Part shown: one piece after another, positions 3,585-63,856 of the stretch
How positions within the stretch are numbered: the stretch's first letter is position 1
Layout: the number at the start of each line of letters is the position of its first letter
From: Planctomycetaceae bacterium
GTDB taxonomy: Bacteria; Planctomycetota; Planctomycetia; Pirellulales; Pirellulaceae
DNA length: 64,000 bases
Assembly: GCA_024638965.1 (NCBI GenBank)
Contig: JAHEJI010000003.1
Coordinates: 1-64,000 of the forward strand
Reading direction: 5' to 3'
The notes under the pieces: model-generated
Seen by the model: only the letters and a program-made list of their open reading frames with translations
Databases searched by the model: none
What the model was told of the DNA's origin: nothing
Position numbers and translations under genes: made by a program

Positions 3585-4907
3585 ATGCCGACAGTGGAAG
3601 CGAGAGCTGCGAACCGATTGCTGTGCTACGCCATGTTGCTTGCCGCGTCATACACGATGATGCGGACCGTCGGAGACAGTCTGTTCCTCTCGCGCGTCGG
3701 CAGCGATTCTCTGGCACTTGTTTTTGTGTTTTCGGGGATCGCAACGGCGGTTATTGCCTCGATCTGGTACGCCGCGACCCGCAGGCTGAGCCTGACCGTT
3801 TCGATCAAAGCCTCGTCCGTAGTCTTCTTTAGTTTGACACTAACTGCTTGGTTGTTGTTGCCGCATCTACATCATTCATGGTGGTTGTTGGCGGCGATCT
3901 ACTTGTTGACGGAGATCAAAGGCTGTGTCAACACGATCAATGTCGTCAGTGCAATGAATGAGTTGCTCGGCGGACATTCGAGCCGACGAGCTTGGGCAAG
4001 AATCGGTCTTGGGGCACCGTTGGCCGGGATTATTGTTGGAGCCTCGATTGGAATTGAAGCAAGTTTTCTTGATCTGCGCAGCTGGCTGTTGTTGTCCGCT
4101 ATCCTCGATGCAATTGCCATTTTCCCAATAGTAAACGCGTCGAAAGTTAAAATTCAACAAGGAAAATCATGGGCGAAGTCCGAAACTTCGCTGAGGTCGT
4201 CGATGGAGAATTTGGCGAAGCGTTTCAAAGTCTACGCATGCTCCCGCCAGTTTCGGTTCTGGATTGGTCTATTGATTATGGCCAAAGTCATTGTGTTGAC
4301 CTTGATAACTTTCTTCTGGAAAGTTTCGGTCAATGATTACTTTGCCGGAAACGAAGCCTCACTGACCCGCTACTTCGCGGTCTACTACGCCTGCATCGGG
4401 ATGCTGACTCTATTGATTCAGTTATTCGTTACGGGTCGGCTAATCTCCCGCAAAAGTCTGTATGTGCCGATCCTGTTCATGCCGGTGGCACTCTCCATCT
4501 TGTGTATGATTGCAGTCTTCAGTTTGGGCGCGTTTTTAATGTTGGTCGTCCTTACGCTTGCCAAGTCACTTGAAGTCTGGAGGCGAAGCGTTCACGACAC
4601 GACCTTGAACCTGCTGTATACCAACATTGATCGAAGGAAGCGACGAACCGCGATTGCCATCAATACCGCCGCGTTAAAGCCTCTTGCCGAAGTTGGAGCA
4701 TCGTTGGCATTGCTGTTGGGAACCACGGCCTGGCAAAGGTCACTGGTTGTGATCGCCCTCGTGCTGTGGATTATCGCTACGCTCGCCCTGCTGCGTTTGA
4801 TCGCCAAAAAGACGACCTCAACTACAGCGTCCGATCGCGAATCGCCCAAGGAACTGGGCTTCACCTCAAACTTCAAACAACTTGTTCCGGGCTTGTTTCA
4901 CCACTAA
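3585..4907 (+). CDS. Polytopic membrane transporter, MFS or nucleotide-exchanger-like
   Basis: A 440-residue protein with about twelve hydrophobic helices and a short cytoplasmic tail. The opening 'ANRLLCYAMLLAASYTMMRTVGDSLFLSRVG' resembles the start of NTP/NDP-exchanger-like (Npt/Tlc) proteins of the major facilitator superfamily, many of which are uncharacterised in free-living bacteria. Substrate cannot be read from the sequence. It starts with ATG 33 bases after the SulP terminator. It ends inside the convergent NhaR-like gene: the two coding regions overlap by 42 bases tail to tail. Confidence 0.75.
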   Translation: MPTVEARAANRLLCYAMLLAASYTMMRTVGDSLFLSRVGSDSLALVFVFSGIATAVIASIWYAATRRLSLTVSIKASSVVFFSLTLTAWLLLPHLHHSWWLLAAIYLLTEIKGCVNTINVVSAMNELLGGHSSRRAWARIGLGAPLAGIIVGASIGIEASFLDLRSWLLLSAILDAIAIFPIVNASKVKIQQGKSWAKSETSLRSSMENLAKRFKVYACSRQFRFWIGLLIMAKVIVLTLITFFWKVSVNDYFAGNEASLTRYFAVYYACIGMLTLLIQLFVTGRLISRKSLYVPILFMPVALSILCMIAVFSLGAFLMLVVLTLAKSLEVWRRSVHDTTLNLLYTNIDRRKRRTAIAINTAALKPLAEVGASLALLLGTTAWQRSLVVIALVLWIIATLALLRLIAKKTTSTTASDRESPKELGFTSNFKQLVPGLFHH

Positions 4908-5768
4908 CAATGTCGCTTCATGATGAACTCGTTTCTCGGCGGAAATCGCATAGAACTTGTCGAGCACCTCCGGGATTCGCCCAACCAGATGCACCCCGTA
5001 TTGCTTCTTGATTAACCCTTCGATTGCCGTTGGAATCGGGAAAAGCCCCTCGCCAGCCTGGCCAAAGACTTTCAATAGAGCACTATCCTCAAACTCGGCA
5101 ACAATGTCGGGGTAAATATCATTGTCGTCCATCCAGATGTCGAGAGACCTGCGCACCGCAGTATGATCGGTTGGCAGCAAACAAGGAGCATCGGTCAGGG
5201 ATTGAGGAAACCCCTTTTTGTACTGCTTGGCTAAGCCGGGTGTCGCCAACATCGACATCCCACATTCGCCTAATTTGTGGTTGTAAACTTTGAACTCCAG
5301 CGTCGGTGGCGCTGGAGCATCGGAAATAACGAGGTCTAGTTTATGAAGCGCCAAATCGGACAGCAGTTGATCCAGCTTGCCCTCGTAACAAACGGCGCGC
5401 GGGCGATCTTTCATATGCAGCGCCGGTTTGAGCAACTCGAACGCGACATGCTTGGGAACGACATCGGGAAGACCTACCACGAAACGTTTCCGGTTCCCCT
5501 GATGGCCAGTTTTGATGAACTCGCGAAGTTCATGGCCGAGTGCAAATATTTCTTCGGCGTAGCCGTGCACTTGTTTTCCGAATTCGGTCAGCACCAATCC
5601 GCGACCTTGTTTTTCGAACAGCGGTTTGCCAACCGATTTTTCCAAGTCTTTGATTTGAGCTGCCACGGTCGGGCGGGCTAAATGCAGTGATTCGGCGGCT
5701 GCAGATACAGTTCCTGTTTTGACGGTTAGCCAGAAATAAAATAAATGGTGGTAGTTCAGCCATTCCAT
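4866..5768 (-). CDS. nhaR: LysR-type regulator of the NhaR group
   Basis: A 300-residue LysR-type transcription factor. The N-terminus is the winged HTH ('LNYHHLFYFWLTVKTGTVSAAAESLHLARPTVAAQIKDLE'), closely matching E. coli NhaR, including 'KQGRGL' and 'GKQVHGYAEEIF'. The effector domain keeps NhaR-like blocks ('LHKLDLVISDAP', 'LGECGMS', 'FEDSALLKVFG'). In E. coli NhaR senses sodium and activates nhaA. No nhaA is present here, so the target may be the SulP or MFS-like gene, or lie elsewhere. The 157 bases upstream separate it divergently from the zinc-ribbon gene. The gene name follows resemblance only. Confidence 0.88.
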   Translation of the reverse strand: MEWLNYHHLFYFWLTVKTGTVSAAAESLHLARPTVAAQIKDLEKSVGKPLFEKQGRGLVLTEFGKQVHGYAEEIFALGHELREFIKTGHQGNRKRFVVGLPDVVPKHVAFELLKPALHMKDRPRAVCYEGKLDQLLSDLALHKLDLVISDAPAPPTLEFKVYNHKLGECGMSMLATPGLAKQYKKGFPQSLTDAPCLLPTDHTAVRRSLDIWMDDNDIYPDIVAEFEDSALLKVFGQAGEGLFPIPTAIEGLIKKQYGVHLVGRIPEVLDKFYAISAEKRVHHEATLLVVKQARNKLFEV

Positions 5769-52858: not shown

Positions 52859-53011
52859 AAGCCTCGGTTTAACCGCAATCTCGTTCATAGATCGCGTTTG
52901 TGTCATCCTATCCGGGATTTCTCACGTAGGCCGGAACAAAGTCGCGAATGTGCTTGGGTGGTAGAATCCAAGCTCAAACGTGGCTCGTATTTGCCGTGCT
53001 TGACTGACTGA

Positions 53012-56915: not shown

Positions 56916-56985
56916 TGTGTCTTCAAAAGATCGTTGATGCGGGTATTTCTGTATGGGGTTGATTGAGTGTCGGCGGCAAAAAAGT

Positions 56986-57043
56986 GTAGCAACAATTGTC
57001 CCAATTGTTCAATGTATTCAACAATTGGGACAATTGTTGCTAC
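56986..57043. repeat. REP palindrome, left of the decayed transposase
   Basis: Perfect 24-base inverted repeat (arm contains CAACAATTGTCCCAATTG) around a 10-base loop. Within each arm CAATTG...CAATTG forms a further small palindrome. It ends about 57 bases before the transposase reading frame. Confidence 0.85.
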
Positions 57044-57099
57044 AATCTCCGTCGTAATTTTCAGTTGTTAGTCCTCAAATCGCAAACAAGGGTTCTACA

Positions 57100-57896
57100 T
57101 TGTCTGCCGCTAAACCGATCGGTACGAATGAAGGAGAACCGGTTGCTTTTCGGTTCCTTGATAAACACGCCGATATCGAAAAAACGTACCGGAATCTCCC
57201 ACATTGGTTTCAAGTTGGTTCGGCGATGTTTATTACGTTTCGAACCAACGACTCGATGCCCAAAGACGTGGTGATGAGATGGCATGCCGAACTTGAACAT
57301 TGGCTGACAACGAACGGGTTGCCACAGGAGCTTGCAGGCGAACCGAATTTCCATGACGCATCTCACCCCGCTCATGCGTCAGACCATCGACCCAAGTCTA
57401 GATTCGGGACTTCGAAACGTTCGCCTGAAGCTACAATCGCAACGTCGATTTCGCTTGATTCGATACCTCCGGCGAAGCGAGCTGAGTTTAAGAAGTTGCG
57501 CGAACGAATTTGGCACCGCTCATTGGATGAATGTCATGGTAGGTGTTTGTTAAAGCAGCCGAAATAAGCTCGAATCGTTGCGAATTCGCTCTTGTTTTAC
57601 GATGGCAGGAAATACGACCTCGATCGGTTTATCGTGATGCCAAATCACGTCCATGCCATTGTACAGTTCCGAACGGGTGAATCATTGATTTGGTGAGCGA
57701 GAGTTGGATGTGATACACGGCTCGTCAGATCAATTTTGAGACGGGAGACTCCGGGGCGTTTTGGCAACGCGAGCCGTTTGACCACATTATTCGGAGCCTA
57801 GAGCAATTCGAGTATCTACAAAAGTATGTCGCGGAGAATCCGCTGAAGGCTAATATACGGGATGGTGAGTTTTTATTTTGGGCACGAGAAGTGTAG
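57100..57896 (+). pseudogene. Decayed REP-associated tyrosine transposase (RAYT)
   Basis: The first part (57100-57567) reads 'RNLPHWFQVGSAMFITFRTNDSMP' and 'RIWHRSLDECHGRCLLKQP' as in IS200-like RAYT proteins. TAA at 57565 interrupts the frame. The same frame then continues through the catalytic HUH-type motif 'DRFIVMPNHVHAIVQFRTGES' to a second stop, TGA 57694. After a one-base shift it resumes as 'RQINFETGDSGAFWQREPFDHIIRSLEQFEYLQKYVAENPLKA' to TAG 57896. The tyrosine-bearing C-terminal part is partly retained. With two stops, a frameshift and missing codons it cannot work. Flanking palindromes are its probable former substrates. Confidence 0.85.
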
Positions 57897-57906
57897 CTCC
57901 AGTTTA

Positions 57907-57969
57907 GTGTAGATCCAATTGTCCCAATTGGATTCTGTTTGGAAACAATTGGGACAATTGTTGCTACAC
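57907..57969. repeat. REP palindrome, right of the decayed transposase
   Basis: Arms GTGTAG...CAATTGTCCCAATTG and its imperfect complement ending GTTGCTACAC. Several mismatches near the outer ends (ATC against CAA) show drift from the left copy. It starts 10 bases after the transposase stop. Confidence 0.8.
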
Positions 57970-58040
57970 TTCATCACCGGCGATGATGCTCAACATTATT
58001 GTTGATGACTCTATTGCCGCTCGTCAAAAAAGCCCATTCT

Positions 58041-60869
58041 CTATCTGCTTTTCAGCCTCGACTTATACTCGGGCCGCGATTTCCAATCATCAAAGTAGGG
58101 TTTGTATTCTGGAACCTCCGTCCATTGTCGCGGTTGTGGGTGACCCGGGTTGACCAGACCGTTCGAATAGTCAGCGCCGTTGATACTTCGCTGCAACGAT
58201 TCGGCAAATTGATCCATCTGTGTTTTCATCCGACCGGCAATTTTTGGATGCGATTGGTAAAGGTTGGATTGCTCAGTGGGGTCAGACTCAAGGTCATACA
58301 ATTCATATTGCTTCTTCTGTTTTTTGTCGCCCGTGTAGAGCAACTTAAAGTCGTTGTCGATGAGGGCCATATTTCCAAAACAGCCGAAAGGAATTGGCTT
58401 GTCCCGCGTTCCGATTTCCTTCTCGAACAGTTTGCAAAGGCTCCCACCATCTTGCGGATGAGTTATCTCTGATTGTGGAACTCCGCCGACGTCAGCAATG
58501 GTTGCAAAAATATCCATCGAAACCGCTGGATACTTCGTCACTCTGGGAGTGATTTTTGCCGGCCATTCGACAATCGTTGGGACGCGAAGTCCTCCCTCGT
58601 ACAAACTTCCTTTGTTGCCGCGCAATCCCCCAACTGTATCTGGTTTGAGTCTGGGCAGTCCGCCGTTGTCGCTGGTAAACCAGACTAACGTCTTGTCTGC
58701 GATTCCCAAGTCGCGAAGTGCGGAACGCAAAGCGCCAATGCTGCGGTCCATCGCGACCAACTCACCCAGTTGGTTTCTCGAGTTGTTGTCGAGTTGCGAA
58801 AACGGTTCTGCATCTGCGTCGCTGGCCATAAAAGGACCGTGTGGCGTTCCGTACCAGATCACGGTAAAGAAGGGCTTGTTGGCATCAGCTTGTTGTTTAA
58901 TAAAATTGACCGCTTCATCGACGATGATCTCCGAAGAGTCACCGACAAACTCTTCGAACTTTCCATTCCGGCTCATAATCGGATTAACGTCAAAAAAGTT
59001 GGTCACCGAAAGCCAAGTTTCAAAACCGAACGCGCCTGGATTGTGCGAGTCGCCACCCAAGATCGGCACTCCTGGCCCACGCAACCCGTTAAGATGCCAT
59101 TTCCCGAAATGCCCGGTCGCGTATCCCAAGTCACGCAGCGCTGTCGCGATTGATTTTTCCTGTAGACGTAACGCATAACCTTGTTCCGCAACTCCAGTCC
59201 GCAGATTGGTGCGACCGGTGAGAATGCTGGCGCGGGTCGGAGAACAAACGGGGGCAGCCGCGTAAAACCGATCGAACCGTAATCCGTTTTCCGCCATCGC
59301 ATCCAGGTTGGGCGTTTTCAGAAGCGGGTGGTTGCAATAACCGGTCTGCCCCCACCCCTGATCGTCCGCCATCAAGAGCACGATATTGGGTTTGGTGTTG
59401 GTTTGCTGATCGAAAGCCCATTCGCTGTTTCGAGAGCGGCCTGAGACCTCAACCTGTTTCAATTCCAGGGCGAGTCGCGATACGAGCTGCGGATGTTGGC
59501 TGTACAGATTTTTGGTTTCCCCAGGATCGGTTTGCAAGTCATAAAGTTGGCCAAGTGGCTGGCCAGCAGCCGGTTTGATCCGGCTGGGTTTTGAGAATCC
59601 GCCCGAACCCAGCCCCTCGATCAGTTTCCAATGTCCGGATCGAATCGACATCGTCTTGTTTCCTGATGCCATGACCAGATTGGGACGAATCGGTGAGTCA
59701 TCGGATTTCGTGCCGTTTAGTACGCTTAAGAAACCAAAACTGTCCGGGCCCGCGTCATCGGGTAACTTAACGTCGACTATTTCTGCAAACGTAGCGAGCA
59801 GGTCGGTAAAACAAATCGTCTGGTCCGAAGTTGAACCTGGTTTCACTATCGTTGGCCAGCGGACGACAAATGGCATGCGGTGTCCGGCTTCCCAAGCGTC
59901 CGCCTTCATGCCTCGCAGGCCTCCAGACGAATCATGCCCAAATCGCTGAACGTCTTTTTCGTACCAAACCGGTCCGTTATCGGACGTGAAAATCACCAAC
60001 GTGTTATCTGACATCTGGGCATCTTCCAGCGCCTTCAAGACTCGACCAATCATCGCGTCGACCATCGTTACGAAGTCGCCGTACATGCTGGCTTTGCTGT
60101 TGCCAACGAATTCTGGTGCAGGCAGCCAAGGCGTGTGCGGGGCGGGGTAGGCTAGATAAAGCATCAACGGTTGATCTGATTGATTTGCCGCGTGGTTGTT
60201 GATGACCTGAATTGCTTCATCCGTAAACCGCGGCAGGACGTCCTTAAGCTTCATGTCGGGAGCAATTCCGCCCGCCCGCCAAAATTCGCCTTGGATCGGA
60301 GACCAGCCTTCGCTCGCACGAGCCTCGATTTGTTGGGTGGGCGGGTCGACGGCTCGATCATTGCGAATGTAGAAGTACGGAGGAATATCGGTAGAAGCCC
60401 GGATACCAAAAAAAGAATCGAATCCCCGATCGACCGGTCCGCCCGGCAACCGATTTTCGTATCCGTTTTCGTCAAATCCTAAATGCCACTTCCCCACCAT
60501 CGCGGTGTGATATCCGCTTTGTTTTAAAAGGGAAGCGATCGTTACTTCGTCGTCCCGGATAACGGCTTTGCGACGCCAGACACCCACATTCGCTCGAAAC
60601 GGGTATCGGCCCGTCATGAGTCCGTATCGAGACAGATGGCACAGCGGACCGGGCGCATGCGCATCCGTGAATCGCATCCCGTGCTCGGCCAGTCGGTCAA
60701 TTTGGGGAGTCGGTATCTTGGATTCTGAATTAAAACAACCGGGATCTCCGTAGCCCATATCGTCGGCCATGATGATGACAATATTGGGATACTCATCAGC
60801 TGAAAGCGCCTGAATCGGCAAGGTAGAAATTCCGAACACCAACAAAATAAGACACAAGACTCGATGCAT
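58041..60869 (-). CDS. Exported double sulfatase (two sulfatase domains fused)
   Basis: 942 residues; ATG 60869 begins a signal peptide ('MHRVLCLILLVFGISTLPIQALS'). Domain 1 (about 25-480) starts 'PNIVIIMADDMGYGDPGCF' and has the formylglycine motif 'CHLSRYGLMTGR' (C77), with Leu in place of the usual Pro. Domain 2 (about 490-930) starts 'PNIVLLMADDQGWG' and has the canonical 'CSPTRASILTGR' (C542). Metal-site residues such as 'FTSDNG' occur in both. Each Cys would be converted by formylglycine-generating enzyme, encoded elsewhere. The pair may remove two sulfates from one algal or host polysaccharide. Two fused sulfatases are uncommon. Confidence 0.93.
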   Translation of the reverse strand: MHRVLCLILLVFGISTLPIQALSADEYPNIVIIMADDMGYGDPGCFNSESKIPTPQIDRLAEHGMRFTDAHAPGPLCHLSRYGLMTGRYPFRANVGVWRRKAVIRDDEVTIASLLKQSGYHTAMVGKWHLGFDENGYENRLPGGPVDRGFDSFFGIRASTDIPPYFYIRNDRAVDPPTQQIEARASEGWSPIQGEFWRAGGIAPDMKLKDVLPRFTDEAIQVINNHAANQSDQPLMLYLAYPAPHTPWLPAPEFVGNSKASMYGDFVTMVDAMIGRVLKALEDAQMSDNTLVIFTSDNGPVWYEKDVQRFGHDSSGGLRGMKADAWEAGHRMPFVVRWPTIVKPGSTSDQTICFTDLLATFAEIVDVKLPDDAGPDSFGFLSVLNGTKSDDSPIRPNLVMASGNKTMSIRSGHWKLIEGLGSGGFSKPSRIKPAAGQPLGQLYDLQTDPGETKNLYSQHPQLVSRLALELKQVEVSGRSRNSEWAFDQQTNTKPNIVLLMADDQGWGQTGYCNHPLLKTPNLDAMAENGLRFDRFYAAAPVCSPTRASILTGRTNLRTGVAEQGYALRLQEKSIATALRDLGYATGHFGKWHLNGLRGPGVPILGGDSHNPGAFGFETWLSVTNFFDVNPIMSRNGKFEEFVGDSSEIIVDEAVNFIKQQADANKPFFTVIWYGTPHGPFMASDADAEPFSQLDNNSRNQLGELVAMDRSIGALRSALRDLGIADKTLVWFTSDNGGLPRLKPDTVGGLRGNKGSLYEGGLRVPTIVEWPAKITPRVTKYPAVSMDIFATIADVGGVPQSEITHPQDGGSLCKLFEKEIGTRDKPIPFGCFGNMALIDNDFKLLYTGDKKQKKQYELYDLESDPTEQSNLYQSHPKIAGRMKTQMDQFAESLQRSINGADYSNGLVNPGHPQPRQWTEVPEYKPYFDDWKSRPEYKSRLKSR

Positions 60870-61047
60870 ACCGGTTCCGCCGAGAAACAAGTAGAAAGTT
60901 TACTTTTATTTACCGTAACAGGCAGATACATCCTATCGAAGGCAAAATAACGGGTGGCGGTATAATAGAACAAGAAGAGTCATGGTGCCGAGCATTATTT
61001 TGCCACGATGAGCTTGGAACACGTCGCAGCCTTTTCAAAATAAAGCT

Positions 61048-62262: not shown

Positions 62263-62281
62263 TTTTTTCCCTACAGTAGTA

Positions 62282-62463
62282 TCTTAATCTTAGTCGTACT
62301 CCTAATCGTTGTCTCAATCTCGTGAACTCGAAAATCGTTGTTTGTCTGTTGAACCGTCTCACCAGCATGACCGACGAAACAAATTTATCACGACTACGAC
62401 TAAGACTAAGACTAAGACTACGAGTACGAGTACGACTATGACTAAGACTGCGAATACGAGTAA
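62282..62463. repeat. Degenerate hexamer array between the ATP-grasp genes
   Basis: On the plus strand 62390-62463 is a string of CGACTA, AGACTA and CGAGTA units (cgactacgactaagactaa...). The left part (62282-62320, ttaatcttagtcgtactcc) is its reverse complement, so the ends could pair across an 70-base middle. Similar ACGAGT/ACGACT strings are typical of some planctomycete genomes. Confidence 0.7.
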
Positions 62464-62475
62464 GAAAATCTTGGT

Positions 62476-63693: not shown

Positions 63694-63766
63694 TCGTCGA
63701 CTAATCTGACTAGATTATGCTTGTCCATTATACTGTCTTGTTGATCCGTTCAAGAAACGGGAAGCA

Positions 63767-63840
63767 GTGTAGCAACAATTGTCTCAATTGTTTGAGCATT
63801 ACTCGGTGTCGCACTGCAATTGGGAAAATTGCAACTACAC
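63767..63840. repeat. Third REP-type palindrome, upstream of glgA
   Basis: Starts GTGTAGCAACAATTGTCTC and ends as a mutated complement (GCAATTGGGAAAATTGCAACTACAC region). It is related to the two copies around the decayed transposase but more diverged. It lies between divergent ATP-grasp B and glgA, in the glgA leader. Confidence 0.75.
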
Positions 63841-63856
63841 TAAAAACAAACTAATT

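Follow-up and report, generated by a model that had tools for sequence, protein, structure and literature searches.

Organization of the RAYT locus

The interval 56983-57970 of the window (the whole 64,000-nt stretch that was analysed) holds a broken gene with one hairpin structure on each side (Table 1). The left inverted repeat has 29-nt arms (56985-57013 and 57016-57044) that are 97 % complementary, and the 24-25 nt running inward from the GTAG match perfectly, in agreement with the perfect 24-base palindrome of the preliminary description; as ssDNA it folds into 25 bp at -27.7 kcal/mol (z -12.2 relative to shuffled sequences). The arms on the right are 25 nt long (57906-57930 and 57946-57970) and 88 % complementary, with a fold of -20.9 kcal/mol (z -8.4, likewise against shuffles). 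Each palindrome is a doublet of two short, GTAG-tagged REP hairpins that face one another across a spacer, the REP unit consisting of GTAG (plus C) followed by the stem AACAATTG/CAATTGTT with the loop TCC. These are the features of REPINs, in which REP doublets form hairpins (PMC3116915); the tag is as in the GTAG REP families (PMC3733652), the consensus for REP tags being GT[AG]G (PMC6006769). The right palindrome had been described as related to the left one but drifted. Simple drift does not account for it: in its left REP both sides of the stem have altered together and a 9-bp stem is retained, so that the change is partly compensatory.

Table 1. Positions of the RAYT pseudogene, its lesions and the REPINs within the window
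Feature	Position	Strand	Description or basis
Left REPIN, whole	56983..57046	+	Inverted-repeat search, ssDNA fold, covariance model R1 (E 3.8e-16)
Left REPIN, first REP	GTAG 56986-56989; hairpin 56991-57009		AACAATTG-TCC-CAATTGTT
Left REPIN, second REP	57020-57038; CTAC 57040-57043		Inverted, after spacer
RAYT (HUH Y1 transposase) pseudogene	57100..57896	+	~265 codons; first possible start TTG at 57100, terminal TAG 57894-57896
Stop 1, in-frame TAA	57565..57567	+	Between CLLKQPK and ARIVANS
HUH motif region MPNHVHAIVQF	57637..57669	+	Placed to within a few bases
Frame change, approximate site	57684..57690	+	tblastn pieces switch frame
Stop 2, TGA in shifted frame	57711..57713	+	Between SESWM and YTARQIN
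Right REPIN, whole	57906..57970	-	Inverted-repeat search, ssDNA fold, covariance model (E 2.5e-16)
Right REPIN, left REP	GTAG 57909-57912; hairpin 57913-57933		Variant hairpin ATCCAATTG-TCC-CAATTGGAT
Right REPIN, other REP	57944-57962; CTAC 57964-57967		REP-A, inverted, after spacer
Third family copy in window	63766..63841	+	A + B type with TCT loop; at a distance from the RAYT

The gene between the REPINs can be followed from 57100 to the TAA at 57565, on through MPNHVHAIVQFRTGESL to the frame change, and then past the TGA at 57711 along a frame that stays open to the TAG at 57894. When intact homologues were aligned by tblastn (wrong-strand homologue frames being disregarded), the match spanned the whole interval and was interrupted by exactly two stops and one frame change, just as the preliminary description had read them, and the segment MPNHVHAIVQF that it had picked out is present in the translation. 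Since the frame is not intact, the gene is a pseudogene of the RAYT family and not a working member of it. Two pieces of the gene match NF047646 (REP_Tyr_transpos) separately, with E-values of 2.2e-4 and 5.1e-6, and the read-through protein, with X at the lesions, matches it with an E-value of 5.7e-15 and 55.5 bits, which is below the curated cut-off of 80; the scores of intact homologues, in which the model does not cover the first ~110 residues, likewise fall under that cut-off. The nearest homologue scores just below the cut-off of Pfam Y1_Tnp, and among solved structures it has E. coli TnpAREP (4er8) as its only significant relative. Six proteins were aligned (A2), and in this alignment the pseudogene keeps the HUH (HVH) and WQ motifs, the D-H..R block and the tyrosine motif Y(V/I)xxNP (as YVAENP); these motifs are class-2 signatures, the W-Q...D-H..R block being the region that reads GTAG (PMC6006769). 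With a protein family that fits, inverted GTAG hairpins on both sides of the gene and the same repeat dispersed genome-wide, the arrangement is that of a RAYT locus, as originally proposed. The neighbouring interval 58041-60890 (- strand) is occupied by one 949-aa frame with two tandem sulfatase domains (Pfam PF00884 twice), the halves of which match different contigs in several congeners.

Genome-wide distribution of the REPIN family

The palindrome was expected to recur through the genome, and it does: AACAATTGTCCCAATTGTT at no more than three mismatches gives 63 matches in the own genome, the two strands taken together, and its reversed control gives 0. Within the window itself the core CAATTGTCCCAATTG occurs six times at no more than two mismatches, against 0.26 expected. 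A near-exact search with the tag-included REP found 34 copies in the own genome, 11 in a sister MAG (G024; CAMYNE01, uncultured Pirellulaceae, isolate FCS_M_Planctomycetota_03) and 0 in 58 other relatives, again with a reversed control of 0, and a scan of 84,980 genomes (own-genome records possibly excluded) with the exact REP matched only the sister MAG. A covariance model built from 29 doublets places REPINs at no fewer than 43 sites in the own genome, at least 23 in the sister and at least 14 in a congener (G021), these being counts of places among the matches listed; by these numbers the REPIN is a dispersed, many-copy repeat.

The dispersed copies are mostly asymmetric, one end (A) having AACAATTG with the loop TCT and the other (B) TGCAATTG with the loop TCC, whereas those that flank the RAYT are of A+A and C+A make-up, have TCC loops and are without a B-type end; the stem is common to the whole family. 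Two of the REPINs (L016 and L019; G000:C279:5619-5698 and C289:22463-22542) have near-identical immediate flanks, gcttgcgattcgATAGTAGC...CATTgggcggctttcgccgcc, and thus both lie inside a larger repeat. We note also a ~140-bp MITE-like repeat (GTGTCATCCTGAACCGAGGCACGAGGTGAAGGATCT...) that lies within ~60 bp of several REPINs (L186 672-800, L190, L194, L207 and L026). It was considered as a part of the REPIN element and rejected as a separate repeat; in one case (L204) the sister MAG has it and the corresponding own-genome site lacks it. Another palindromic repeat of the own genome, ~70 bp long and built around CGCTAGCCGCCGGT...ACCGGCTAGCGCC, occurs at ~20 places.

Comparison with a sister MAG

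The sister MAG is ~95-96 % identical to the own genome where the two align, and 14 orthologous REPIN sites are filled in both. The site of the third REPIN of the window is filled in the sister. No empty site was seen among the resolvable orthologous REPIN sites of the two genomes; in one round of this comparison seven own-genome sites were tried against the sister, of which only one gave a usable flank beside a REPIN. In ten full-length pairs the divergence is 5.2 % for REP arms, 5.8 % for spacers and 6.6 % for flanks, the last figure being inflated by one poorly aligned flank; the difference between REP arms and flanks is not significant (p 0.23), and no extra conservation of the arms is detected. 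Since the sites are shared, none is empty and the drift equals that of the flanks, no movement is visible since the split, and the REPIN copies, as judged from these alignments, drift like the DNA around them. REPINs are described as transposing very slowly even where the RAYT is active (PMC8049555), and immobility alone is therefore no proof that loss of the gene stopped the movement.

Except for short repeat matches, the window segment 54796-62435, including the RAYT locus, falls in a gap of the sister's assembly, which is 71 % complete, and for this reason the age of the decay is not directly readable. In 11 of the 14 orthologous pairs the own-genome REPIN has the lower score (p 0.057 by sign test and 0.011 by Wilcoxon test), a comparison that carries some ascertainment bias and in which the branches are unpolarised. 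It is conceivable, although we consider it doubtful, that, with the RAYT dead, the REPINs of the own genome are decaying faster than those of the sister; if so, the species pair would be a natural experiment on the maintenance of REPINs by RAYTs. Two other features of the window were seen in the comparison with the sister: a 48-bp stretch (52908-52955) has at least nine near copies (90-96 %) in the sister MAG, and a low-complexity inverted block of ~170 bp within 62265-62470 (cttaatcttagtcgtac... / gactaagactacgag...) is lacking at the sister's orthologous place.

Origin of the REPIN family and relationship to known systems

We think it highly probable that the locus is a REPtron with a dead transposase, that the flanking REPINs are its cognate substrates and that the dispersed REPINs are its products. 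The gene would have encoded a class-2 TnpAREP/RAYT, an ssDNA HUH nuclease with a catalytic tyrosine, which, by analogy with the work on E. coli TnpAREP, would read the tag (GTAG) and hairpin of a REP in single-stranded form, cut, and re-join; such cutting and re-joining would copy REP doublets into new places. The two flanking REPINs would be substrates of this RAYT, and the ~40 other REPINs of the own genome with the same stem most likely represent the population that it made. The two stops and the frameshift would then have inactivated the gene and left behind REPINs that stay put and drift, an immobility of which the loss of the RAYT may be the cause.

That the lesions are assembly or sequencing errors in a gene that is really intact seems very improbable; the source is a MAG and every core catalytic residue is still present, but three independent lesions lie inside ~150 bp of one gene, and the neighbouring frames of 949, 576 and 404 aa are open. 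We give almost no credence to the idea that the palindromes serve to terminate transcription or are hairpins of some other kind, unconnected with the transposase. They are strong stem-loops outside long reading frames, as terminators would be, but their GTAG/CTAC tags and doublet design, the absence of a T-run from their ends and the dispersal of the same sequence to so many places all speak against this, as does the same arrangement around the RAYTs of relatives.

The preliminary description called for a search for an intact RAYT copy; no intact copy of this RAYT was found in the own genome (a MAG of 292 contigs, 88.6 % complete). An active RAYT could be absent from this assembly, and the family might then have been made by another RAYT, since lost or left unassembled, with the one in the window merely lying between two members. 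The incompleteness of the MAG and the mismatch in loop and subtype between flanking and dispersed REPINs favour such an origin. Nevertheless we regard it as unlikely, given that in relatives the RAYTs of this group have, as a rule, their own REPs as flanks: among 25 surveyed RAYT loci with a recognizable frame, from relatives and from the own genome, the majority carry hairpins with a sequence of their own on at least one side, compared with ~0.1 expected from shuffled flanks. The sole other own-genome RAYT found with the window protein, on contig C239, is only 31-35 % identical to it and has arrays of another, unlike REP beside it. At that locus (L045 / L168; G000:C239, ~4000-5400) there is an intact RAYT frame of 237 aa, and both flanks are BIME-like tandem arrays of ~51-bp REP units (CAGCCTGTCCCAGGCTG / GAGTCTGGGACAGACTC).

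The nearest intact RAYTs are two in the congener G021, 57 % and 56 % identical to the window RAYT in alignment A2. This genome also carries AACAATTG REPINs, mostly tagged GTCG, and its RAYT on C15 is flanked by GGAATTG-TCC-CAATTCC, which has the same inner core. At several loci of congeners (L143, L147, L164 (G021), L058 and L059) the tag GTCG replaces GTAG/GGAG in hairpins that are otherwise alike. Co-evolution of RAYTs with the REPs beside them has been reported (PMC2817692). Taken with the flanking rule, the RAYTs and REPINs of the congener and the different REPs on contig C239, this makes it likely that the family belongs to the window RAYT. The earlier claim that the locus shows which palindrome the transposase moved survives as the best-supported reading and not as a demonstration: the flanking copies share the stem of the family, but in their loops and A/B make-up they differ from the dispersed majority. 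That the window RAYT moved this REPIN family is well supported, though we infer it; the assignment is short of proof because the REPs are of different subtypes and the MAG does not cover the whole genome.

We found no description of this CAATTG-stem REP family in the literature. GTAG REP families and REPtrons have been reported also for Planctomycetes (PMC3733652). The locus adds a clear RAYT/REPIN pair from an uncultured Pirellulaceae lineage. RAYT loss and gain are named as unaddressed in a modelling study (PMC8049555), and the own genome and its sister could together show the fate of a REPIN population after the loss of its transposase. The element itself is an ordinary, standard REPtron of a well-described kind, and what is new is this dead RAYT. 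It resembles RAYT/TnpAREP (E. coli PDB 4er8; class 2, PMC6006769) in its HUH (HVH), WQ, D-H..R and Y...NP motifs, in its single copy and in its inverted GTAG REPs as flanks, and differs in being broken and in having a ~100-residue N-terminal region (PHWxQ...DSMP) before the modelled core. The repeats share with REPINs (PMC3116915) two inverted REPs, a variable spacer, a unit that folds to a hairpin and compensatory changes, although the dispersed copies here are asymmetric, with unlike A and B ends, and number only ~45. With the GTAG REP families and REPtrons (PMC3733652) the locus has in common the GTAG at the foot of the stem, the REPtron layout and a repeat-specific RAYT, and it departs from them in its A/T-rich CAATTG stem.
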